Source: Sorghum bicolor (lineage: Eukaryota; Streptophyta; Magnoliopsida; Poales; Poaceae). From it: a DNA stretch of 64,000 nucleotides. Within the stretch, counting starts at the first letter, position 1. Every line of letters begins with the position of its first letter. Under the pieces are notes generated by a model. That model saw nothing but the letters and a program-made list of their open reading frames with translations, searched no databases and had not been told where the DNA came from. Both the position numbers and the translations under genes were made by a program. This document shows positions 43,978-61,275 of this stretch, in pieces. Where the stretch lies: the NCBI RefSeq assembly GCF_000003195.3, contig NC_012871.2:43256434-43320433 (forward strand), written 5' to 3'.

Positions 43978-45210
43978 TGTTGACGGTTCATAAGTATCAA
44001 TTTTAATTATCAAATAAACAAGAGAAAGGACCAATATGCAACAAACACCTAGAATTAGGGTTTGATCTGACAGAATTCCACGAGTTTTGTTGTTTATCTA
44101 TTTCTGCAGGGGGTTATCCAGAAATAAGGAAGAAAGGTCCACATGTCAGGATTACATAGAGATATCAACGCACCGCACGATTTTCTACCATCTAGAAGAC
44201 TCCAGAAGCCACGGGAAGAAGGCAGAGGCCGAAAGGGGCCAGGCCCAGGGCGCCCGCCCTGGTGACCTGGGCGCCCGCCCCCTGTTGGATGCCAATCAGG
44301 ACTCTCTTCGCACGGGATGTTCCACCGACCTATTGGATCAAGGAAAACATAGTACCACCTCGCATACCGACCCAAAAACGCATAGAGGAGGAGGACTATA
44401 TAAGGAGACCCCCCTGGCCCCTGGAGTAGACAATAAATTATCATAGAGATTGAGGGGTGCCCTCGAACGAAAACCTCTTCTCTAATTAATATTTCTTTTT
44501 AGGCTTAGCAACCAATGTAAAGTAGAAATAGATCTTCTAGTTTCTACTAGACTGAGAGAGATAGAGTGGAGGTGTAGATTGGAGGAAGGCCGGCCTGTCG
44601 GTGTCTACTCGAAGCTTGTACCTGCGGGATCAAGTTCTCCTAACCCGAAGCTTGCTCCTAGGATTCTTCAGTATTTTGACTTCTAAATTCTAGTAAGTTC
44701 TTGTTTTATTATTCTTATAGTTTATGAGTTTACTTTAATCTCTTCGTGTAGAGTTTAGAGTAATCATTGCTGGCATAAACGTGGTGTTTAGGCTGGGGTA
44801 CTCATAGATATTCCCTGACTAGCTGGACCGTGGTAGTAGTGAGGAACGTGACAATTCCGAGTTACCTTTGCAGACCATATCTCGTTAGCAGGAAGGATAG
44901 GGTTTATAGGTGCGGGTTGAACATCCTTTGTGGTGTCTAGATTCCGTTAGACTCCCCACTAGAACAATAGATCATCCTTACCAAGGTTAGAAGGAGACTA
45001 CGGTTGCAGTCTTCTTTATTTATCACTCACATCGAGAGACATTCTTTGTTGCCTAAAGGGTTAGTAGTAATAGACCGGTTAGTCAGATGCACTCTTTCTC
45101 CTAGTGGTAAAAAAATAAATACGATACTCTGGATAACCTCCCGGGTGAAGTGCTCACCGATATCCGTGCGCTTGCGGATCAATTCCTTATTGCGTTCCCA
45201 AATATCAACA
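43978..45210 (+). repeat. Athila LTR2 (1233 bp)
   Basis: TGTTGACGG..ATATCAACA. It serves as the 3' LTR of copy I and, by position, as the 5' LTR of a middle copy that is almost wholly deleted. It carries GGGCGCCCGCCC-type motifs at about 44246-44280 and TATATAA at about 44397. Confidence 0.9.
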
Positions 45211-45905
45211 AGTTAGACCCTTGTTGAGAGATTTATCATGCCCCTAAGATCAAGACATTTATTCAGAAAGATTCACTCTTCTGAAGTATCATTGCATTAG
45301 AGGCATGGGCTATGCAAAAATAAAGATATTTCGAGGAAATAAAAAGGAGCAAGTGCTAGATAACCTCGTAGAAAAAAATGGACAAGTGTCCGACAGTAGA
45401 ATTAGGGATACCTCGGTATCCACTTAAAAAAAAGAAGAGAGAAGAAAAAGAAATGATAGCCCATGGTCCCTCTAATAAGCAATATGCCAGCAAGAGTTGA
45501 CAAAGATTTTAATTTCCAAAGTCTTTGATCTAAGAGTATGACATTCCCCTCCTCGGATCCCGTTTTGATCAGGCAATAAATGCAAAGTAAGTATGCTTGA
45601 GAATTTTTTTTTTGAAAATTAAAACAGCCTCAGTGAGATATATAAAAGATAATGAGTGATCTGAGAAAACCTATGAGGATAAAAGGTATGCTGGCTTTCT
45701 TTCAAAAATATACAAAAAAAACTCCAAGTGACAGGATTGAGAAGAAAGGATCGCTACTCTTAACCATACACTTCCCTGACTACAGTACACAGTGGATTTT
45801 AACACCCTGCAGTTATGAAAAGAATGTTTTAAAATGTTTTGCCCCAGATATCGTTCTTAACCATCCTATTCTCGAGGACGAGTAAAAGCCTAAGTATGGG
45901 GTATT
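45211..45905 (+). repeat. Remnant of a deleted middle Athila copy (3' UTR only)
   Basis: Begins AGTTAGACCC exactly after the LTR2 end and matches about 43288-43977 to the polypurine tract. Primer site, gag and pol of this middle copy are missing; the break shares AG on both sides. Confidence 0.85.
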
Positions 45906-47137
45906 TGTTGACGGTTCTTAAGTATCAATTTTAATTAACAAATAAACAAGAGAAAGGACCAATATGCAAACAACACCTAGAATTAGGGTTTGATCTGACA
46001 GAATTCCACGAGTTTTGTTGTTTATCTGTTTCTGCAGGGGGTTATCAGGAAATAAGGAAGAAAGGCCCACATGTCGGAATTACATAGAGATATCAACGCA
46101 TCGCGCAATTTTCTACCATCTAGAAGACTCCAGAAGCCACGGGAAGAAAGCAGAGGCCGAAAGGGGCCAGGCCCAGGGCACCCGCCCTGAGGACCTAGGC
46201 GCCTGCCCTCTGTTGGATGCCAATCAGGACTCTTTTCGCACACGACGTTCCACTAACCTAAAGGATCAAGGATAACCGTCCAATCAATGTCGGTTTGATC
46301 CAATGGCTCACGTTCACTTGAGGGGACTATAAAACCAGAGCCCCTGGCCCTTGGAGGAGACAAGTTTATCATAGAGTTGAGGGGAGCCCTCGAAGGAAAA
46401 CCTCTTCTCTAAATAAAATTTCTTTTTAGGCTTAGCAACCAATGTGAGTAGAAATAGATCCTCTAGTTTCTACTAGATTGAGAGAGATAGAGTGGAGGTG
46501 TAGATTGGAGGAAGCCCGGCCTGTCGTTGTCTACTCCGAGCTTGTACCTGCGGGATCAAGTTCTCCTAACCCGAGGCTTGCTCCTAGTATTCTTCAGTAT
46601 TTCGACTTCTAAATTCTAGTAAGTTCTTGTTTTATTGTTCATTTGGTTTATGAGTTTACTTTAATCTCTTCGCGTAGAGTTTAGAGTAATCATCTCTAGC
46701 GTAGATGTGGTGTTTAAGCTAGGATACTCATAGATATTCCCTGACTAGCTAGACCGTGGTAGTAGTGAGGAACGTGACAATTCCGAGTTACCTTTGCAGA
46801 CCATATCTCGTTAGCAGGAAGGATAAGGTGTATAGGTGCGGGTTGAACATCCTTTGTGGTGTCTAGATTCCGTTAGCCTCCCCGATAGAACAGTAGATCA
46901 TCCTTACCAAGGTTAGAAGAAGATTATGGTTGTAGTCTTCTCTATTTATCACTCACATCGAGAAACATTATTTGTTGCCTAAAGGGTTAGTAGTAATAGA
47001 CCGGGTTAGTCAGATGCACTCTTTCTCCTAGTGGTAAAAAAATAAATACGATACTCTAGATAACCTCCCGGGTGAAGTGCTCACTGATATCTGTGCGCTT
47101 GCGGATCAATTCCTTATGGCGTTCCCAAATATCAACA
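45906..47137 (+). repeat. Athila LTR3 (1232 bp)
   Basis: TGTTGACGG..ATATCAACA, 5' LTR of Athila copy II, followed by its primer site. Confidence 0.9.
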
Positions 47138-47145
47138 AGCATTTC

Positions 47146-47271: not shown

Positions 47272-48038
47272 ATGGAAAACCAAGATTCTAACTCAATCTA
47301 CCAATTTGCAACACCTTCGGAAACTGACCTTTTACCATGGGAATCATCACAACCTATCCAAACATCCCAGTATAGGTTAGGTTCTAGGTTGATTGCCATG
47401 ATTCAAAACCTATCTTTTTCGAGAAAGGAAGATGAGAACCCTTACCTTCATATTAGAGATTTTGAGCAAACATGTGATTGTCTTCGCATTGAAGGCATTT
47501 CTGATAAAACTTTATGTTGGAAGCTTTTTCCTTTTTCCTTAAGGGGAGAAGCTAGACAATGGTACAGTCAGAAGGCAAGTCAACAATGAGGTGAATGGGG
47601 AGTTTTACGAGCCAACTTTTGTCTAGATTTTTATTCCCGCGACCGTATCGGCGACCTTAGACTCGAAGTCCTATCTTTTAAACAAAAAGATAATGAAACT
47701 TTGGGAAAATCCTGGAAACGTTTTTCTGATCTTTTAGAATCTGGTCCAAACCTTAATCTTGAAGACCCTGTTCCTTTATTTCACTTTTTTCGAGGTCTTC
47801 AGAAAAATCATAAACAAATGCTACACACAATGTCTAGAGGTTCTTTCTTTCGCATCCCTACTAATGAAGCTAGAGTGATCCTAGATAGAATCCTAGAAGC
47901 TGAGATGGATAATACCCTTCATGATGAAACCTACGAAGACAAAGTAGACACTCTGCCAAATTCTTCATCTACTTTAGCTATCCTAGGTTCTGAGCCACAA
48001 GAGGAAGAAATTCCACCACCGGACTTCATGCTGGATAT
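47272..48038 (+). pseudogene. gag: gag of Athila copy II, split by insertion
   Basis: ATG at 47272 (MENQDSNSIYQFATP). Capsid motifs as in copy I (LFPFSLRGEARQWYS, FFRGLQKNHKQMLHTMS). TGA at 47587 replaces CGA of copy I. It retains the ILDRILEAEMDNT segment lost from copy I. The reading frame is cut at 48038 (FMLDI) by the minus-strand element and resumes at 55745. Confidence 0.82.
48034..48038. repeat. Target-site duplication GATAT (left)
   Basis: GATAT before TGTTGG and again at 55745-55749 after GTCAACA. In copy I the same site (about 38046) is uninterrupted. Confidence 0.9.
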
Positions 48039-49320
48039 TGTTGGATATTTTAAACGCAAACAGAAAAATCCACAAGCGCACGGATACCGATGTAGCTTTC
48101 ACCCGGGAGTATTCTAGAGTATCGATTTTCCACAAGGAACGTGAGTGTACTAATTAAGATTCAAGATCGCCCAAGGATAACTATATAATTATTTTTGGTG
48201 GGAAGAGAGGAAGTTTCCTGAGAGTTCTCTAGTTGATCTAAGAATCAAGAATTACTTCAAAGATTATCTATTTCGGGACATCAGAACACTAACCACAGAA
48301 AGAGATGAGAAGGGGGCTAGGAAGCTCTGACTACGGTCCTACAAACACCGATCCGAACGAGGTAGAATACATCGATCGTTAGGGCTGTCACTACCCTAGG
48401 GCTACCACAACAATCCGCAGGATTGGGTGCAATTCCAGGTAATTGCAAGACTAAACACCACGTCTAATCTATTAATTACTACTCTAATGTTGCAAAGATT
48501 AGAGCACTTGATGCAAGCGGGAATCCAATAAATAACTTGAATGTAAATAAAAGTAATTAAAGAACTTAGGATTATGAATTGAAGAACCTGGAGAACGATG
48601 AAGAATGAACCAGTTGCTGCAAAAGTACAATGTTGAGGAAGATCCGACAGATCCGGCTCCTCCTCCTCCGCTCTCCTCTTCTCTCTCCCTATTTTCTAGA
48701 TTACAACTAGAACTAACTAGAACTATAACTAGAGGAACTAGAACTAGAACTAGATGAACTAGAACTAGATCTAGATGAACTAGAGGTAGAACTAGAAGAA
48801 CTAGAGGGATCCTCTCTACTTGGATGAAGAATTGAAACCCTAACTTTGATTCTGTAGAAGAGGTATGATCTCCAGGGGCCAGGGGGTCTGGTTATATAGT
48901 CTTTTCAGATGAATCTGGGCCGTCGGATCAAACCGACATTGATCGCACGGTTTTCCTTGATCCTTTAGGTCGGTGGAGCGTTGTCCGCGAAACGTGTCCG
49001 AATTGGTCTCTGGAAGTGGGCGGGCGCCCAAGGGACTAGGGCGGGCGCCCTGTGCCTGAGCCCTCTCGGCCTCCGCTTCCGTCCTGTGGCTTCTGGAGTA
49101 TTCTAGATGATAGAAAATTGCACGGCACGTTAATATCTCTATGTAAACCCGACGTGTGGGCCTTTCTTCCATATTTCCTGATAACCCCCTGCAGAAATAG
49201 ACAAACAACAAAACTTGTGGAATTCTGTCAGATAAAACCCTAAGTCTAGGTGTTGGTTGCATTTGGATCCTTTTCCATGATTAGTTGATGGTTAAATGTG
49301 AGCATTAAGGACTGTCAACA
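48039..49320 (-). repeat. 3' LTR of the non-autonomous Athila relative (1282 bp)
   Basis: Plus strand TGTTGGATATT..CTGTCAACA. TATA box on the minus strand around 48891-48898, next to GGGCGCCC-type motifs at about 49018-49050. ACTAGA-type short repeats at about 48705-48800. Confidence 0.9.
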
Positions 49321-49335
49321 AGCTCCTCCAAGCTT
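49321..49335 (-). promoter_or_regulatory. Polypurine tract of the non-autonomous Athila relative
   Basis: Minus strand AAGCTTGGAGGAGCT directly before TGTTGACAG. The upstream GGGACGAGCAAATG block parallels GAGGACGAGTAAAAG before Athila LTR2. Confidence 0.75.
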
Positions 49336-51479
49336 AACATTTGCTCGTCCCTGAGCAAAGATGGACTCAAGAGTTTCTGCAGTGGTTTCATGACTTAAAG
49401 ATACACATGCGTTCAAATAAGATCTCATCTCTGGGTTAGGGTAAACTGTTAAGATTTAGACTTACTCATTGTACCTTCCACCATGGGGCTTGCAACCGTC
49501 ACTTGTGTCTTGAGTAGTTAAAAGATAGAACGGTCTAGTCAAGCGCCATGTCTCTTGTTCTTCGATTAACTATAGCTCTGGAGTTTTTGCAGATTTTCAA
49601 ATAAAACTCAGAGATTCCTTGTATGACTCTCTCTAGTCTCTCTTTTGTGGTATTTGTGGATCCTTACCAAGGCAGTGATGGTGCATGCCTTCTCTCAAAG
49701 TATGTGGTATTTTTGGTATGAGGCATAGTGACATTGCCTTCTCTCTCACCCTACTCTAATAAGGTTTTGATATCTGGAGCTCATAGGTGGGAGACAACTA
49801 ATACATACTTACAAGACATTTATTGCATAGTCAAACCATGGATCCAGAAGAACAAGTCAATAAGTCAAATCAAGATGTGCATGTGTGGCGAATGAATGGT
49901 GCATGGTAATGATGGTGATAACAATGGTGAAAGTCTAATTCTACTTGTGCTCTTTTGAGGGGATACATACCTTTCTCGCTCTTTTGAAACTTTTTGAGGA
50001 GAATGAGATGCTCTATATTTTCTTTTTCTTTTCTCTCAGGTGGGTAACTTGTACCCATAATTCTACTGTCGGACACTTGTCCATTTTTACCTCTCGTCTC
50101 ACTTTTTCTTTTCTTTCGAGGTTCCGGGCACTTGCCCTTTTTATTTCCTCGTATCTCCTTTTTTTTCTTTTTTTTAGAGCACTCATCTCCTGAAATAATA
50201 TAGCAAATGGTAGTAACAAGATAACTTGAGCATTTATTTCACAGGGAAAAACAGAAATGTTTTTGGCTATTCTCTCCCGGATTAGGAGTAGAATATTTTT
50301 AGGTGATTCTGGAGATGGAAATGGGTGGATATATGTAGTAGCATGTATGAGTGAACGTGCAAGTGATTCTTGATTTAACCACATGACAAGCTCCTAAGGG
50401 TCTACACAGCTTGACCCCACTCAATGCTCATAAGCAGTAAAAAGTAAATGTGTGGCTCAAAGTCTAGCAAGCATGTATATATGGCTGTGGTAGGAATTTA
50501 AACTCTCATCATATAGGAACTCGTCATGTGATATTTTAAAGATTTTTTTTTCAAAGATAAAATTCTCTAGAATTCTAGCATCTCTAGGAACAGATAAACA
50601 GCAGCTCAACCTTCCCATATCATATCCGTTAACGACTTAGACTTTAGATCAAGTACTCTCCCCACAAGTTTAGATTTAGAGCAAATCTTAATTAATAACA
50701 GTCATGCCTAAACTTGAGAGAGATTTCAATTTTGAGAACTAGTCATGGTAGAGCAACTATTCATCATTTCCATGTGAGAGCTTATCATGAGGGTTCATAG
50801 CGAACTTTATTTATTTATTTATTTAGCAAACTAAGCACAGATATATATAAGCACAAAATCTTTATTTGGGTTTTTATGATCATGCATCTTTTTATTATTT
50901 GAGTAAAATATAAACATGAGTAGAGCACTTAGCTAGATAAATGAGGTTGCTCTCCCCCAAGCTGGGTTTTGACGTAATTCCTTCTAATGTAGCTAGCAGG
51001 TGGTGGAGGTGTATTGGAATGTCAGCAGCACCCTGACAGCAATTACTATGTCCTCCGTCTACTAATCTTCTTTGATCCTTGAATTCTGTGGAGCTCAAAT
51101 AGACAACAACGCTTTGTGGAACTAGTTAACTATTAGCATAAATATTTAGCCTTTATCATGTTGAGCTTCCTCTAATAAATTTTACTCTCTTTGGTAGGAT
51201 CATAAATCTATTTTTATAATTTTATTTTTATAGGACAGGAATATATTTATTTTATTTTTATGCCACCACAGTGAATGTACTTATGGGTTTTATGCCATGA
51301 GCATACTCACATGGGGCTTACTTAACATTTTTATTTTCTTTTCAAGATGATCTGAACCTGATTAACTAACCAAACTATTTTAAATAATTGAAAGGAAAAG
51401 GATAACTACCAAGTTTACCTCTTGGCAAGGCGTTCGGTGTTTTTAAGTCCTCCGAACGGGACTCTCCATTTTTTCAGTT
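49336..51479 (-). other. Noncoding 3' region of the non-autonomous element
   Basis: No coding frame with a domain. A block at about 50035-50170 resembles the Athila 3' UTR (minus-strand GGACAAGTGTCCGACAGTAG), and a polypurine-like site lies at 50951-50965. Small ORFs at 49870-50384 are in this UTR-like sequence and are not called. Confidence 0.65.
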
Positions 51480-51482
51480 GTC

Positions 51483-52136
51483 CTAGAATTTGCTGGATGG
51501 CGTAGTCGGTGGTTTCGGCGGTGCTTCCTCTTCGTGTATAACTATCTTCTCTCTCCACACCTGACTCGGTGCTACGGTCTCCTCAGGACAGTTCTGTTCA
51601 AGTTGTATGTCTTCCGACATTACCACTTCTCCTTCGTAGTCTGCCCATCTGTCCTTGATGATTTGCCTCCTCTGGTTGTGGTTGCGTCGTCGTCTTCTTG
51701 TCCTGACCTGCTTAGAGTCTTCAACTACATAGTTGGGGTCAGTAAAACAGTGGCGTACCTTCTCAGAGGGGAAGTGCATGTAGACTTCTCCGGTTCCAAT
51801 GTAGATGATTGCTTTAACGGTGCTGAGGAACGGTCTTCCAAGAATGATGGGTGGATCGTACTCGTCTTCTCCCATGTCAATAACCTTCAACCTTTCAGAA
51901 TGTCTGATCTGCATCTGGAGCTGAATGTATGTCGGTTTTAGGGGCATGGTTCCGAATAGGAGCTCATATGTGACTGCAGCCATTATGTTGACGTCAGATC
52001 CGGTGTCGTAGAGTGTCTTGTGAAAAGAATATCCGTTGATTGTGCACTCGATGCTTGGAACACCAGGGTCGTCCTTCTTGATCAAGAAAGGCGACTTGAG
52101 TTGACGATCTTGACCTCCTTGAGCCGCAGTGACCAT
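51483..52136 (-). pseudogene. Retropepsin-like domain, second of two
   Basis: A 217-codon open frame. SPFLIKKDDPGVPSIEC leads to the active site LYDTGSDVNIMAAVTYELLF, then YDPPIILGRPFLSTVKAII (flap and hydrophobic motif), an Arg-rich stretch (VRTRRRRRNHNQRR) and an acidic/Pro-rich tail ending PKPPTTPSSKF. This is an Athila-type aspartic protease with an intact D-T-G. No RT follows; the frame ends about 2.1 kb before the polypurine tract. The open frame is maintained while the rest is degraded. Confidence 0.75.
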
Positions 52137-52179
52137 CTTAGCTGACTCAGTCTACATTTGCTTGTTCCTGTTTCTCGTG

Positions 52180-52658
52180 TTGGTCCTCTTCCTTGGTTTA
52201 TGTCGAGATTGCTCTGAGATTTATGTAGTCTTGTTCTTGAAGGAAAACATCTCCTTCCTCCCCTTGATGTAGAAACTGATCTTGGTAGCACTAGCGTAGA
52301 TGATAGCTCCCGAAGTGTTTAGGAATGGCCTCCCTAGAATGATGGGTGCCCTCTCATCTGTACCAGTATCTATCACCACGAAGTCTGCTGGGGCTTACAA
52401 GGTACCAACTCGGACGCAGAGGTTTTTCAATTTTCCCTTTGGGAAACTTAGCGTACGATCTGCAAGCTGCAAACACATGGCTGTTTCTAATAAAGGATGT
52501 GTAAAGAATTTTTCATAGAGTACCCTGGGCATAATGTTGACGCTAGAGCCAAAGTCGCAGAGTGCTTCTAGGAAGTCCACCATGCCGATGGAGATCGGGA
52601 TAACGAGGCAACCTCGATTGCCTCTCTTGACCGGCAGAAGGTCAGTAATTACTTCCAC
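52180..52658 (-). pseudogene. Retropepsin-like domain, first of two
   Basis: Upstream on the minus strand: IPISIGMVDFLEALCDFGSSVNIMPRVLYEKFF (shown in part), where D-F-G replaces D-T/S-G, then LQLADRTLSFPKGKLKN. A TAA near 52395 interrupts; after it APADFVVIDTGTDERAPIILG and GRPFLNTSGAIIYASATK complete the domain. It is arranged in tandem with the second domain, about 50 codons apart. It resembles the usual Athila protease, so the pair looks like a duplication. Confidence 0.7.
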
Positions 52659-54453
52659 AATGGGGTTACTCCAGTAGTTACGTCCTCAAGCATCTCAGGG
52701 CAGTGATTGCCTGAGTGTCCAGTATCTCTAGTGTGTTTGTGCTCGTAGATCTAGGTTCTTCACTTGGTGGAGTCTGGGAGTTGTAAAAGTCCTTCATATT
52801 TTGCTCGAAGTGTATCTGCTCATAGAGACAAGGCAGAGATCAAGTGCATGGGCCCTGTTGGTGGAAAACACCAACAGAACCAAAAGTGTATTTGTTCTCT
52901 CTAACCTTAAGCATAGTGAGCAAGACAAAGTTGATGGATAATAAGATCATGAGTGTAGCATTTAAAACATTTGTCAGATCAGATCGCTCAACCTAATGGA
53001 AAGATAATCTATCTATATTTATGTTGTTTTTTATAAAATATATCTTCCAAAGATTGAGTGTGCAACATTTTAGCTCATATGATTAGGAGTGTGGGATCAC
53101 AAAGGTAGAAGGACTAAACATATTGGATCGATTGGGTTGGTTATCTAGAGTTGTAAAGCATACATGTTTGTCTCTTTTATCCATGTGAATGCCAGAACCA
53201 AGGAGAAGCTTATAAAAGTGATAGTCAAGTACCTTGAGATGTTACCTTACTTGAAGAGTGATGGTACAGTATCACCTTGTGGAAGCTTTCCTTTCTTAGC
53301 GGTTGTGCATCGTGTTTGTGGCACCCTCCATGGATCATCTCTTATGAGCTATGCCTTCCTTGTGTAAATTGTTAAACTTCATGTGTCTCTCTCTTTGTCT
53401 CCAATGTGAGTTTGTCTCAGGACTTCTCAGGTCGATATTGAAAGTTTTCCTGCAGGGGTTAGTCCAACAGAATATCCAATATCTACTATAGCATAATATC
53501 GGCTCAAAAATCAACCTAGACACCATGTCTAATTTGATTTAGGAGGGCATTTTAACCTAAGCATTATGCTTAATTTAAAATCCCTTGGAAATAAGATCAT
53601 CATTCCTAAACTAAGCACCATGCTTAATTAAGAGATAAATGAAACTACTCCAAACCTAGACATATACTAAAGCAAATAAAGGTAGCATGGGAGCATTTAT
53701 AGAAGTCTACTAAAGTGGAGATGAAGAAGTGTGATTAGTATTTAACAAATTAAGCATGTCTCAAAGGTAGGGACAACCAACATAGCAACATGGCAAAGGA
53801 TGTTTTTATGTAAAGTACTCCCCCAAGCTTGAATTTTGCAAAATTCAAGTTTGGATGAATTTAATTCAATGTTGTATGATGATTGGTTGGACATACCTTG
53901 TGCTTGTCATTCATCCGATCTTCTTGCTCCAATCCTAGAAAGGTTAGTGACAAGAATACCCGAAGGAAATTTTTTTTACAATTATCCTTATATGCTCAAA
54001 ACACAAGATAATGTTGCAAATAATTAAAAGCTCATGTTACGATCTGATGAGTGCTTATTTTAGGACACTAAGCTTGTCCTTGGGAAACCATTAATTTATG
54101 TCAGCGAAGTGGTTTCCCCTCCAACGCTGACCTATATCAAGATCAACTCAACGAGATCTGCAAAATTTATTATAGACATATGCATCGACAACCACCCTTT
54201 TAAAGTTTTTATAAATAGAAAGGAAGTGGGGTTCGAGATCTCGAATGTGGTGATGTTGGAGAGACCAATGGATTGTGAAGATGTTGCATATGAGCATGGA
54301 GTAAATGAAGTGGCTATGAAATAAATTCCATGGTCATTAATGCTTAGAGTGAAATCCATGTGGTATGGTGAAAATGATAAGGTGAGTGTGGTAAAAAAGG
54401 AAAAGAAAAAGGATACACAGATGACTTGGTTCGAAACTAGCACAGCTACCATT
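52659..54453 (-). other. 5' internal region of the non-autonomous element
   Basis: Mostly degraded. A short gag-tail-like stretch (YEQIHFEQNMKDFYNSQTPP) reads on the minus strand at about 52780-52840. A 22-bp perfect palindrome lies at 53828-53849, beside a polypurine-like site (53816-53830, minus). Plus-strand ORFs near 53836-54324 have no recognised domain. Confidence 0.55.
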
Positions 54454-54470
54454 CCCTGGCAACGGCGCCA
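54454..54470 (-). promoter_or_regulatory. Primer binding site of the non-autonomous element
   Basis: Minus strand TGGCGCCGTTGCCAGGG, tRNA-Asp type with one mismatch, seven bases from the LTR edge at 54478. Confidence 0.85.
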
Positions 54471-54477
54471 GAAAGCT

Positions 54478-55744
54478 TGTTGGATATTTTAAACGCAAAC
54501 AGAAAAATCCACAAGCGCACGGATACCGATGTAGCTTTCACCCGGGAGTATTCCAGAGTATCGATTTTCCACAGGGAACGTGAGTGTACTAATTAAGATT
54601 CAAGATCGCCCAAGGATAACTATATAATTATTTTTGGTGGGAAGAGAGGAAGTTTCCTGAGAGTTCTCAAATTGATCTAAGAATCAAGAATTACTTCAAA
54701 GATTATCTATTTTGGGACATCAGAACACTAACCACAGAAAGAGATGAGAAGGGGGCTAGGAAGCTCTGACTACGGTCCTACAAACACCGATCCGAACGAG
54801 GTGGAATACGTCGACCGTTAGGGCTGTCACTACCCTAGGGCTATCACAACAATCCGCAGGATTGGGTGCAATTCCAGGTAATTGCAAGACTAAACAACAC
54901 GTCTAATCTATTAATTACTACTCTAATGTTGCAAAGATTAGAGCACTTGATGCAAGCGGGAATCCAATAAATAACTTGAATGTAAATAAAAGTAATTAAA
55001 GAACTCAGGATTATGATTTGAAGAACCTAGAGAACGACGAAGAACGAACCAGTTGCTGCAAAAGTACAATGTTGAGGAAGATCCGACAGATCCGGCTCCT
55101 CCTCCTCCGCTCTCCTCTTCTCTCACCCTATTTTCTAGATTACAACTAGAACTAACTAGAACTAGAACTAGAGGAACTAGAACTAGAACTAGATCTAGAT
55201 GAACTAGAGGTAGAACTAGAAGAACTAGAGGGATCCTCTCTACTTGGATGAAGAATTGAAGCCCTAACTTTGATTCTGTAGAAGAGGTATGATCTCTAGG
55301 GGCCAGGGGGTCTGGTTATGTAGTATTTTTAGATGAATCTGGGTTGTCGGATCAAACCGACATTGATCGCACGGTTTTCCTTGATCCTTTAGGTCGGCGG
55401 AGCGTTGTCCGCGAAACGTGTCCGAATTGGTCTTTGGAAGTGGGCGGGCGCCCAAGGGACTAGGGCGGGCGCCCTGTGCCTAAGCCCTCTCGGCCTCCGC
55501 TTCGGTCCCGTGGCTTCTGGAGTCTTCTAGATGATAGAAAATTGCACGGCACGTTAATATCTCTATGTAAACCCGACGTGTGGGCCTTTCTTCCATATTT
55601 CCTGATAACCCCCTGCAGAAATAGACAAACACCAAAACTTGTGGAATTCTGTCAGATAAAACCCTAAGTCTAGGTGTTGGTTGCATTTGGATCCTTTTCC
55701 ATGATTAGTTGATGGTTAAATGTGAGCATTAAGGACTGTCAACA
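54478..55744 (-). repeat. 5' LTR of the non-autonomous Athila relative (1267 bp)
   Basis: Same as 48039-49320 with few substitutions and a shorter ACTAGA repeat tract (about 55142-55232). Few differences between the LTRs point to a younger insertion than its host element. Confidence 0.9.
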
Positions 55745-57498: not shown

Positions 57499-58392
57499 TC
57501 ACAGACTACTGGGATCTGTGGCAGAGGAACCACGTGCGTAGCGCCAAGAGATGCTAGCAAAGTCAAAGCGATGGGGCAGAGGTACTTGAAAAGATCCACT
57601 GCCCTGAGGTTCTCTGAGAGATAACACCCTCTTCCCAGTATCTATGATAGCATCCCACTCTTTCATCCAGTTCATGCCCATGATAACATCCAAAACTAAC
57701 CCAGGCATGACTACTAGATTTACTCAAAACACCCGGTTACTTATATCCAAGGTTGCCCCTCGGACCACTCTATTTGTCAACACATCTGCCCCTGCTGAGC
57801 TGATGCGATAGCCATAACCCAGATCCGTAATTGTTTGGTTATGCTTTTGTGCAAATGCTTGGCTCATGAATGAATGCGATGATCCAGATTCAAATAAAAC
57901 AACTACAAGATGTTGGTTGACAGGGAACATACCAGCTGTTACTGATTCACCTTCAGGAATCTCCTCTATCAAGGTATGGTGCACTCGAGCTGGGTAGGTC
58001 GTCTGCTGCCTTTTGGGGTAGGGACATTCCTTAGCAAAGTGCCCCATCTTGTGGCAGTTGTAGCACGGTCCCTTGGTCGTATTGTTGACGGCAGGTGCTG
58101 TAGCTTGAATTGCCTTTGGCTTGGCGGGAGCTATCGCCACCTTGTATGGCTTTTGCTGCGTTGGATGCCCGTTGTTCCTTCTCTGCGGCGATCGGGACCT
58201 AGCACCTGGGGCAGGAGGATGATACTGCTGTCGCCCCGCCACTGGTGCCCTAGACTGAGATGACCCGGCTTCAAAAGCCCTCTTACGAGACATGGATGCA
58301 CTGTAGTTGTTGTTATTGTTTTCCTGGGTCAGACAGTCACTGATGTAAGCATTGAAGGTAGCCCGGGCTCCCATACCCATGGTCTTCAACAT
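57499..58392 (-). pseudogene. gag-pol: gag C-terminus with CCHC knuckle and protease, Tekay-like element
   Basis: MLKTMGMGARATFNAYISDC starts the visible part, then an Arg/Ser/Pro-rich nucleocapsid region and the zinc knuckle CYNCHKMGHFAKECP (about 58020-58065). The protease has VVLFESGSSHSFMS: Glu stands where the catalytic Asp is expected, so this protease would be inactive. A TGA at about 57721-57723 breaks the frame after DISNRVF; downstream MPGLVLDVIMGMNWMKEWDA is the conserved Tekay protease end (GMNWL-type motif), to 57499. Confidence 0.85.
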
Positions 58393-58410
58393 CTTTGGGC
58401 TCAGGCCTCT

Positions 58411-59088
58411 CTAGAAACTAGCGATCTTCTTGGCTTCTGTGTTCACATACTCGGGGGCGTAACGAGCAAGATTGTTAAAAGCGTGTAGATACTCCTTCAC
58501 AAACTTCGTTCCCTGGGACAGCCTCATGAACTCCCCAACCTTCATTTCCACCACACCCGGAGGAATGTAATTTCCCCTAAAAGCGGTGGTGAAGCGGTTC
58601 GAGGTGATTGGGGTCCCCTCTGGGTAGGTGGTACGATGATGGGACCACCAAATCCCCGCAGGTCCCTGCAACTGATGCGCTGCATACTCAGCCTTAAGTT
58701 CATCAGTCATCCGAAGAAGACGGAACTTTTGCTCTATGGTATTGATCCACTCATCTGCCTCAAGCGATTCTAAGGCCTCCTTGAAGACTGGTGGTTTGGT
58801 ATCCATGAAGTCCTTGAAAGAACTGTACTGATTGGCTTCACGGCCGCCCTGGTTATCCCCACGACGGGTATTGTCAGCGATATTGCGCAGGTCTTCTTCC
58901 ATGTTGCGTTGCATCTGCTCCATGTTGCGTTGGCTCCCTAGAAACTGTCCGAAAAACATGTCTGCAGTGTACGGAGGAGACGGTGGTGGTGGTGATGGTG
59001 CTCTTTCCTCATTCCGTTGAGCCCCACCTTCGGAAGTACCTGCTCCAAGTCCGGAGTTGTTGTTACCCCTGCCACGTGTTTGCACCAT
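58411..59088 (-). pseudogene. gag: gag capsid region, Tekay-like element
   Basis: ATG at 59088 gives MVQTRGRGNNNSG; the codons before it are a GTG and a CAG, and TGCAG directly precedes the ATG like a splice acceptor. Features: Pro-rich SPPPPSPPYTADMFFGQFL, charged helix NMEQMQRNMEEDLRNI, and the Retrotrans_gag core (FMDTKPPVFKEALESLEADEW, IEQKFRLLRMTDELKAEYAA, GPAGIWWSHHR, FMRLSQGTKFVKEYLHAFNN). It stops with TAG at 58408-58410, a likely former CAG, before the RGLSPKM segment. Confidence 0.85.
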
Positions 59089-59411
59089 CTGCACGCGTCA
59101 ATGATAAGCAATCATTTGGAGTTGCCATCAATGGTAGACGTATGTAGAATTATGCCATATTGAATTTACTGAGGAAAATAAATTCGCACAATAAATAGAG
59201 GCACAACAATTCATCATCCACACAACATCACTAACGAATTACTCAACATTCAAGCAACAAGGTTCGCATACATCCAAAATTGCCAACATACATACAATGG
59301 ACTTTCAGCGTCATCCCATAAAGTTTTACACAGCCTAGTTCCACAGATTACAAGACATGTCATGCAACAACAACAACAAAAGAAAAAGCACTAGCTCTAG
59401 AGCTCTAGCAT
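59089..59411 (-). other. Spacer between extra ORF and gag
   Basis: About 320 bp, AT-rich, no ORF. Its gag-proximal end reads GCGTGCAG next to the gag ATG. Confidence 0.7.
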
Positions 59412-60455
59412 CTACTCGGTATGGTCATTGTCCATGTCGGAGCCCTCCTCGTCCTCAGCTCCACTAGCAGCTGCCTCTATCTCTGGATCCTCATCCATCT
59501 CATCCTCAGAGTCTAACTCAGCTGCTCCAGGCAGGTGGTGAGGGCGGAGCTGGTTGTGTAGCTGGAGGATCTCCTCATGCAGGTTCTCATTGTACTCCTC
59601 AGCATTAGCTAGCTGCTGCTCCAGCTCTAGCTGTCGGGCCCTCAGGGTGTCCTCCTCATGCCAGGCTTTATTCCTCTGACCAAGCACATGAACTAGCATG
59701 CGCTCGCAGTTCCTGTGAGCAGTAGTCACCCTGTCCCTCTGCTCTCTCACTGCAAGCAGGTCCTGACTCAGCTCACTGTTCTTCTGGACCGCCTGATCCC
59801 TCTCTCGGGTCATGCGTACCAACTTTGCCTGCAGCCTCTCAACCTCAGTGTCAAACTCACGCTGCAGCTGGCGCTTCTCATCCTGAACTGTGAGAAGGGA
59901 CCCAGACAAGCGTCCCAAACAACGCTCCAGACCCCCATAGGTCTTCGTCAAGGCGAACATAGCACTCATAGCTGCACTGTCACTGTGCTGGTCCTCGTAT
60001 GCACTCCTCTCTAGAGCATTCACCTCGGACTGATCCCGCACCGAAGTGTAGGGGTCAACCCGAGGAAACACCCCAGCGAAGGCATGGGCCAGCTCATATG
60101 GAAACCTCTCCATGAGGTCCCTCAGAACTGCAAAAGCTGCTCTGCTGCCACCGTGGAAAGGCGTGGTACCTCGGGACTCGTACACCCAGACGCCCCAGGC
60201 AGGGTCACCTCCACTGGTAGGGACTACTGCCTCGATCCCCACCAGGGTCCCGTCACCAAGCTGCTCCTTGTTCCAATAGTAACAAGGTTCCCTTCCTTCG
60301 GGATACCCCATCGAACTAAGCACCCTCCAAAGCAAGGTGGGCATCCCAAACTCCTCTAGGAACTTGCTCTTATGACGCGAGGTCCTGGCTGCCAACTGAT
60401 GGCGAGGGGCCTGCCCACCAGTGGACTTGCGAGCGGTAAGCCTAGTGCGTGCCAT
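59412..60455 (-). CDS. Extra ORF upstream of Tekay gag with histone H3-like N-terminal tail (347 aa)
   Basis: ATG at 60455. The protein starts MARTRLTARKSTGGQAPR, then HQLAARTSRHKSK. Compared with the H3 tail, residues A1 R2 T3 T6 A7 R8 K9 S10 T11 G12 G13 A15 P16 R17 Q19 L20 A21 R26 are the same; K4 is R, K14 is Q, K18 is H, K23 is R, K27 is H. Residues 32-175 form an unrecognised, probably globular region (EEFGMPTLLWRVLSSMGY, CYYWNKEQL, AWGVWVYESR). Residues 176-303 are a long coiled coil (VQDEKRQLQREFDTEVERL, LRARQLELEQQLANAEEY). Residues 310-347 are strongly acidic (DSEDEMDEDPEIEAAASGAE). No histone fold follows, so it is not an H3 gene. The frame is intact, unlike the gag and pol beside it. 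It sits between 5' LTR leader and gag, and the bases before the ATG (TTCTCTTTGCAGCAG) resemble a splice acceptor. Function unknown; imitation of the H3 tail is an inference. Confidence 0.85.
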   Translation of the reverse strand: MARTRLTARKSTGGQAPRHQLAARTSRHKSKFLEEFGMPTLLWRVLSSMGYPEGREPCYYWNKEQLGDGTLVGIEAVVPTSGGDPAWGVWVYESRGTTPFHGGSRAAFAVLRDLMERFPYELAHAFAGVFPRVDPYTSVRDQSEVNALERSAYEDQHSDSAAMSAMFALTKTYGGLERCLGRLSGSLLTVQDEKRQLQREFDTEVERLQAKLVRMTRERDQAVQKNSELSQDLLAVREQRDRVTTAHRNCERMLVHVLGQRNKAWHEEDTLRARQLELEQQLANAEEYNENLHEEILQLHNQLRPHHLPGAAELDSEDEMDEDPEIEAAASGAEDEEGSDMDNDHTE

Positions 60456-61263
60456 CTGCTGCAAAGAGAATACCTTAGGTAAGATTGAGGTTTATCTTTT
60501 ATTATCTGATTTGGAATTGGGACAGATTAAATTCAGGGGAGGAAGTAAGCAATGATATGAAATGAACATGACGCATGCACGAACTTACGATCTCACAAAC
60601 TTAGAAACAAAAGTTAACACTAATCGGTATATGCGGTGGCACACAACGTTCTCTCATAACGTAACTAGCGTTCTAGGCGGGAACGTGGTTAGTGTACCTA
60701 CAGAAAACTCATTTTAGCCCAACCACAGTATGATCATGCAAAACAAGAAGTTAAAGCTATACACCCCACACACATAGACACCCCGTCCATGCATATGACC
60801 TGTTACTACCCCCATCATCGCCCTAGTGACGGCATCGCCTCTCAGGATGGAATCTCCCAACATGCGGTACTGTTCCCAGGCACACCAAGATGTGTGCATG
60901 ACACAACACCTAACAACACTTCCCTAGATCGACAGTGTATCCGATCATGCTCTCACAGCTCCCACTTACCGAGGCGTAGAGGAAGAATTGATCCATACAT
61001 TACCACTCAAATGAATGGTACCCATACTACTGCACGCCATATGAGCGACGAAAAGAGAAATATGATGCATTAACCCCCAAGTCAGTACTTAACTAGCCAC
61101 CTTAGAGTCCTTAACTGGGCATAAAGGATGACCATGGCACACTAAATAGTTTTCCAAAAACTTAGTTAACACCTTGATTACCATTTGATTAACAATAATC
61201 TTTTGTTAAATCGGTTTAAGTTTAGTTTGGAACATACTTATAAACAGTAACTCGCTAAACCTT
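60456..61263 (-). other. Untranslated leader of the Tekay-like element
   Basis: About 800 bp from primer site to the extra ORF, without a coding frame. Pyrimidine-rich just before the ATG. No other features seen. Confidence 0.7.
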
Positions 61264-61275
61264 GCTCCGATGCCA
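61264..61275 (-). promoter_or_regulatory. Primer binding site of the Tekay-like element
   Basis: Minus strand TGGCATCGGAGC, two bases inside the LTR. It differs at two positions from the initiator-Met tRNA primer site TGGTATCAGAGC; both look like mutations of the normal site. Confidence 0.8.

Follow-up and report, generated by a model that had tools for sequence, protein, structure and literature searches.

Histone mimics, in which viral or host proteins carry short motifs resembling H3, are exemplified by influenza NS1 and G9a, and plants silence retrotransposons through H3K9 methylation. As covered in the available part of PMC10611923, histone mimics resemble the protein described here in bearing H3 tail sequence with an RK core outside a histone, and ARKS-type motifs of non-histone proteins are methylated by EHMT1/2. 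In plants, the geminivirus protein TrAP binds and inhibits KYP (PMC4606454, in the part available); like the role proposed below, this is a plant genetic parasite aimed at an H3K9 methyltransferase, but TrAP binds the catalytic domain, and that part of the paper mentions no imitation of the H3 tail. Further, several grass elements (Retrosat2, RIRE3, RIRE8, FRetro3 and Sorsat2) are known to carry an additional open reading frame, ORF0, which diverges faster than gag-pol (PMC3485330, as far as available). Element-borne accessory genes of other kinds, to which ORF0 may be likened, are the additional ORFs of plant LTR retrotransposons (PMC7264820) and the orchid m6A demethylase ORF (PMC9289625 and PMC12786077), each as described in the accessible portions; the accessible portion of the PMC7264820 review contains none of the words histone, Tekay, Retrosat2 and ORF0.

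We analyzed a window of 64,000 nucleotides from Sorghum bicolor (contig NC_012871.2, positions 43,256,434 to 43,320,433), which contains an ORF0 of this kind. It agrees with the available description in PMC3485330 in being an extra sense-strand ORF upstream of gag(-pol) in a grass element with long LTRs, sorghum being among the published hosts. We infer that it belongs to the published grass ORF0 type, a comparison made by description with identity at the sequence level presumed; no Retrosat2-type ORF0 name appeared among the relatives listed in our protein searches. Unlike the function considered here, PMC3485330 predicts, where available, enzymes of several kinds for ORF0 from homology models, and its main text uses none of the terms histone, chromatin, chromodomain and mimic. 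The initial annotation had noted that its author knew of no description of an H3 tail in a retrotransposon protein, and this agrees with the PMC papers listed on ORF0 and histone tails, in whose available parts no mention was found, preprints and most subscription papers lying outside that literature. The ORF0 of grass elements is therefore already known, while its H3 tail is apparently undescribed in the PMC literature listed.

ORF0 encodes 347 amino acids on the minus strand (59412..60455), with its ATG at 60455-60453 and its stop codon ending at 59412. From the N- to the C-terminus, and all on the minus strand, it consists of an H3-like tail (residues 2-22, corresponding to H3 1-21; 60390..60452), a middle domain (residues 38-120; 60096..60344), a coiled-coil region (residues about 185-300; 59556..59903) and an acidic C-terminal tail recognized from the sequence (residues 301-347; 59415..59555). 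After the initiator methionine the protein begins with ARTRLTARKSTGGQAPRHQLAARTSR, the tail starting directly behind the ATG, and H3 residues 1-26 align with it in register and without gaps at 18 of 26 identical positions. The alignment includes an ARKSTGG core (H3 7-13; 60414..60434, minus strand) whose K9 codon lies at 60426-60428. These results bear out the initial annotation, whose coordinates for an ORF upstream of gag that opens as an H3 tail were exact.

Several searches converge on the same tail. In particular, a phmmer search of ORF0 against PDB chains returned histone H3 as its top match (E = 1.4e-4, residues 1-24), and a tblastn search of the window with H3 found the start of ORF0 at E = 1.9e-7, the sole other match having E = 0.86. 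When ORF0's own 26 residues were shuffled one million times, at most 13 matches to H3 were obtained, compared to the 18 observed; a degenerate DNA pattern written for the tail has a single match in the window and none in 100 shuffles. On these phmmer, tblastn, shuffle and DNA-pattern results, a chance origin of the H3 likeness is rejected. The rest of the protein is non-histone, as had also been claimed: H3 matches stop between residues 24 and 31, no histone fold is present in ORF0 and Pfam yields no histone match. ORF0 is thus not a histone, though it bears an H3 N-terminal tail, and the terminal position of the motif suggests that it is exposed. Beyond the tail, Pfam gives weak matches below its cut-offs, and the coiled-coil region has weak coiled-coil matches in Pfam and the PDB that fall below or near threshold. 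By eye, the middle domain (window 60096-60344) looks like a dsRNA-binding domain in its last strand and helix. An hhalign comparison with manually entered dsRBD rows gave a probability of 5.8% and a score of 18.4, where 60 column shuffles reached at most 17.0; the likeness is weak and a dsRNA-binding domain is not established.

The tail is not confined to the window. Across the sorghum genome (709 Mb in 846 contigs), 117 of 3235 first-look candidates for ORF0 were scored, and all 117, including the window copy, have at least 90% identity over at least residues 1-346; 96 of the 117 contain no internal stop. The element is very abundant: its near-full ORF0 copies number 117 or more. Forty-eight of these were fetched (L001-L048, L001 being the window copy) by rank of likeness to the window copy, which biases the sample, and the ATG and the tail are present in all 48, the window copy among them. 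A second set of loci was found via the related protein P0022 (150 scored of 3256), a query that includes the tail although its matches, except one, lie in the coiled coil. Here, 14 of the 15 fetched loci have the tail, the exception being L062, whose match does not begin until residue 140. L065 and L019 are one and the same copy, and L067 owes its selection to the presence of the tail in its match; without L065 and L067 the count becomes 12 of 13. R8-K9-S10 is kept in all 14 tail-bearing loci, and one of them (L063) has lost its ATG. Locus L067 holds, at 1238-1756, an internally deleted ORF0 that matches residues 1-65 and 237-347 and still has the H3 tail at its start. The presence of the tail in 48 of 48 copies and 14 of 15 P0022 loci speaks against the outcome that the initial annotation had named as fatal, namely a tail lacking from other copies or found only here, and a one-copy artefact or chance fusion is rejected.

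Moreover, ORF0 is under purifying selection. On a tree of the 48 copies, 173 amino-acid changes and 328 synonymous changes were counted, corresponding to a dN/dS-like ratio of 0.15 (mean pairwise ratio of 0.11); because 7 of the amino-acid changes are to stops, some copies are dead. Within ARKSTGG, the same tree has 0 amino-acid changes and 1 synonymous change, and the core is identical in all 48 copies. Over the whole tail (positions 2-22), the ratio is 0.53 (pairwise 0.48), above the rest of ORF0, a value raised by positions 18 (H/R) and 19 (P/Q/L), which differ among lineages. The proposed check of selection on the tail, with absence of constraint as the refuting result, comes out against refutation, the core being invariant, with the reservation that the whole tail has a higher ratio (0.53) than the rest of ORF0.

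The H3 lysines have been replaced selectively. Across the 48 copies, position 4 is R in 48, position 9 is K in 48, position 14 is R in 46 (with Q in the window copy and W in one other), position 18 is H in 28 and R in 20, position 23 is R in 48 and position 27 is H in 48. In the window's family, K9 is hence the sole survivor among H3 lysines 4, 9, 14, 18, 23 and 27, and ORF0 has additional lysines at 28 and 30, where H3 has none.

The codons of H3 positions 7-17 (60402..60434, minus strand) are also the slowest synonymous stretch of ORF0, with 0.19 versus 1.41 synonymous changes per site, the lowest of 337 windows of 11 codons. Since these synonymous sites are slow too, the invariance possibly reflects, in part, a constraint on the DNA or RNA. 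The low synonymous rate is what would be expected if the stretch owed its conservation chiefly to a role as a DNA or RNA element, such as a splicing enhancer or a packaging or priming signal, and its likeness to H3 were secondary. ORF0, however, matches the amino acids of H3 to a degree far above chance, and the match persists between two branches of the protein, making this explanation very unlikely.

The second of these branches emerged from a search of 5.8 billion proteins, which yielded 31 relatives of P0001 and 233 relatives of P0022 residues 25-150, 120 of the 233 being listed. Requiring at least 8 of 21 matches to H3, the tail stands directly after the methionine in 47 of the 136 relatives examined, comprising 46 second-branch proteins and P0013; the remaining 89 start inside the protein by their printed starts, or are a fusion (P0033), and count neither way. 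The second branch consists of metagenome proteins that are shorter, are missing the middle domain and share the coiled-coil region; within sorghum's own genome, that region is 54-62% identical to P0022. The 46 second-branch tails have K9 in 45, K4 in 45, R14 in 46 and H18 in 43, and at position 8 they have R in 35 cases and H or C in the other 11, a pattern that may stem from CpG decay. Retention of K4 in 45 of 46 tails means that having K9 as the only H3 lysine is not general. The tail of P0013 is worn (ARRRLTAHKSTGG). A search with P0001 residues 1-48 (candidates of 191-607 aa) gave three candidates, of which P0005 alone was returned, and no further tail bearers; in IMG/VR, neither a relative of P0001 nor a match to the tail DNA pattern was found.

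Between the branches, identity is 75% in the tails and 56% in the coiled coils (576 pairs for either region, from the 48 copies and 12 author-chosen proteins of the 46), and both branches are about equally close to H3 (15.9/21 for the 48 copies versus 15.25/21 for the second branch). This difference in identity between tail and coiled coil counts in favor of mimicry. Together with the purifying selection that acts on ORF0 and on its core, the likeness kept across two diverged branches disfavors a relic, that is, a piece of an H3 gene captured long ago and carried without function. A splice-site-like sequence directly before the ATG would fit capture at the start of an exon, and we nevertheless consider a relic highly improbable. 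A different function is conceivable as well. The H3 tail is recognized by importins, and the ORF0 tail could be a nuclear import or chaperone signal by which the element brings ORF0, together with its cargo, into the nucleus; K9 methylation would then have no role. Most of the replaced lysines have become R or H, leaving the tail basic, and the likeness to H3 covers residues 1-17 and 20-21, beyond K9 alone, both of which would suit such a signal. However, a generic import signal needs neither an ungapped ARKSTGG core, unchanged in 48 copies, nor a tail held at 75% while the coiled coil diverged to 56%; we regard it as unlikely.

The surrounding element shows how ORF0 might be expressed. Downstream of ORF0 lies a Ty3-type gag ORF (58411..59088, minus strand; Pfam Retrotrans_gag, E = 9.3e-16), followed by the zinc knuckle and protease portion in a separate open frame (57724..58410, minus strand), the window copy being broken. 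A putative primer binding site at 61264..61275 (minus strand) resembles the initiator Met tRNA, whose primer-site motif we take it to be, and is 820 nt before the ORF0 ATG, which sets the leader at 820 nt; the 5' LTR starts just past this site and runs off the window. Elsewhere in the window, 44000-47139 and 48038-55458 contain direct repeats of other repeats, with spacings of about 1.93 kb and 6.43 kb. In copy L008, 23 ATGs separate the primer site from ORF0, so that plain scanning would hardly reach it. A candidate 3' splice site, TTTGCAG-CAG, is directly before the ORF0 ATG (60456..60465, minus strand), TTTGCAG being present in 47 of 48 copies, and a candidate 5' splice site, GGTAAGTGG, is found in the leader (60962..60970, minus strand) in 9 of 9 copies examined, about 510-515 nt upstream of the ORF0 ATG in each. 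Of the 47 copies where the start pattern was found, 46 have GCAG in front of the gag ATG. In the window, the gag and ORF0 ATGs are both directly behind splice-acceptor-like CAG sequences (59086-59092 and 60453-60465). The leader may be alternatively spliced to ORF0 or to gag, and the FLLQ-M lead of the second-branch proteins, a branch known from proteins alone, suggests a like 3' splice site there.

The element has the features of a Tekay-like chromovirus, assigned by its domains: a Ty3 gag, an RNase H and an integrase with a C-terminal group II chromodomain. Eight pieces of other copies were read, and in 7 of them the integrase frame is open to its end. It ends in a weak C-terminal chromodomain, for which the two tested copies have Pfam Chromo scores of 15.1 and 21.4 bits (cut-off of 25.1); the Pfam search of a longer piece did not list a chromodomain, and the rve match is below its cut-off too (28.9 versus 32.6). 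The chromodomain aligns with Clr4 at E = 0.025, keeping the central Trp of the cage, while the other two aromatics are Gln and His. In the available parts of the literature, group II chromodomains, Tekay included, have lost the first and usually the third cage aromatic (PMC3350952, PMC3605345 and PMC6317226), and Retrosat-2 is placed under Tekay/Del (PMC6317226). The initial annotation had suggested that the tail could bind the element's own or host chromodomains; binding to its own would join ORF0 to the integration complex. The two proteins do come from one element, and copies with an open integrase frame do encode a C-terminal chromodomain; but cage aromatics are absent at two of three places, the Chromo match is under the Pfam cut-off and unlisted in the longer piece, and PMC3350952 and PMC6317226, as far as available, state that it is unknown what group II chromodomains bind. 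Such self-binding is less likely, and we rate it as improbable.

Overall, we favor, with a probability of roughly 55%, the reading that a Tekay-like Ty3/gypsy element encodes in ORF0 a conserved accessory protein that carries a copy of the H3 tail and acts as a histone mimic engaging the host's H3K9 machinery. Mimicry is favored because of the extreme N-terminal place of the tail, its invariant ARKSTGG, the loss of the other H3 lysines, the existence of two branches, the above-chance identity of the tail, its presence throughout the family and the ratio of 0.15 for ORF0; TrAP and the ARKS-type motifs methylated by EHMT1/2 serve as precedents. Counted against it are the K4 retained by the second branch, the lysines at 28 and 30, the worn tail of P0013, the variable positions 18 and 19 with the higher ratio of the whole tail, the seven changes to stops, and the slow synonymous sites of positions 7-17; likeness to H3 past the K9 context, up to residue 21, could be explained by other H3-tail functions. 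What stands of the mimic originally proposed is a tail that is real, family-wide and kept, and whose sequence is best read as a histone mimic, with the element's own chromodomain as a less likely target.

The proposed mechanism would begin with leader splicing, giving access to ORF0. Removal of the initiator methionine, as expected before Ala, would leave an N-terminus reading ARTR..TARKSTGG.APR, as in H3, and oligomerization through the coiled coil would make the K9-centered tail multivalent. Host proteins would then bind or methylate the tail, the probable partners being SUVH/KYP-type methyltransferases, CMT3-type enzymes or H3K9me readers. ORF0 could in this way serve either as a decoy, weakening silencing, or as a tether taking the element's complexes to chromatin. 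As a decoy, the multivalent, methylatable H3K9 tail would titrate or trap the plant loop of H3K9 and CMT3-type DNA methylation, enabling the element to escape heterochromatic silencing, and replacement of the other lysines would give specificity for the K9 pathway; we advance this more specific version tentatively.

Compared to known short mimics, the ORF0 tail is about 21 residues long, occupies the very N-terminus of a retrotransposon protein, is under selection and, in the window's family, has the other H3 lysines replaced, providing a natural H3 tail in which K9 stands among substituted positions. The element may imitate the target of the machinery by which the plant silences it. If a selected copy of the H3K9 tail holds, this family would be, as far as is known, the first among transposable elements with a histone tail mimic, and mimicry would supply a testable function for the unexplained ORF0 of grass elements.
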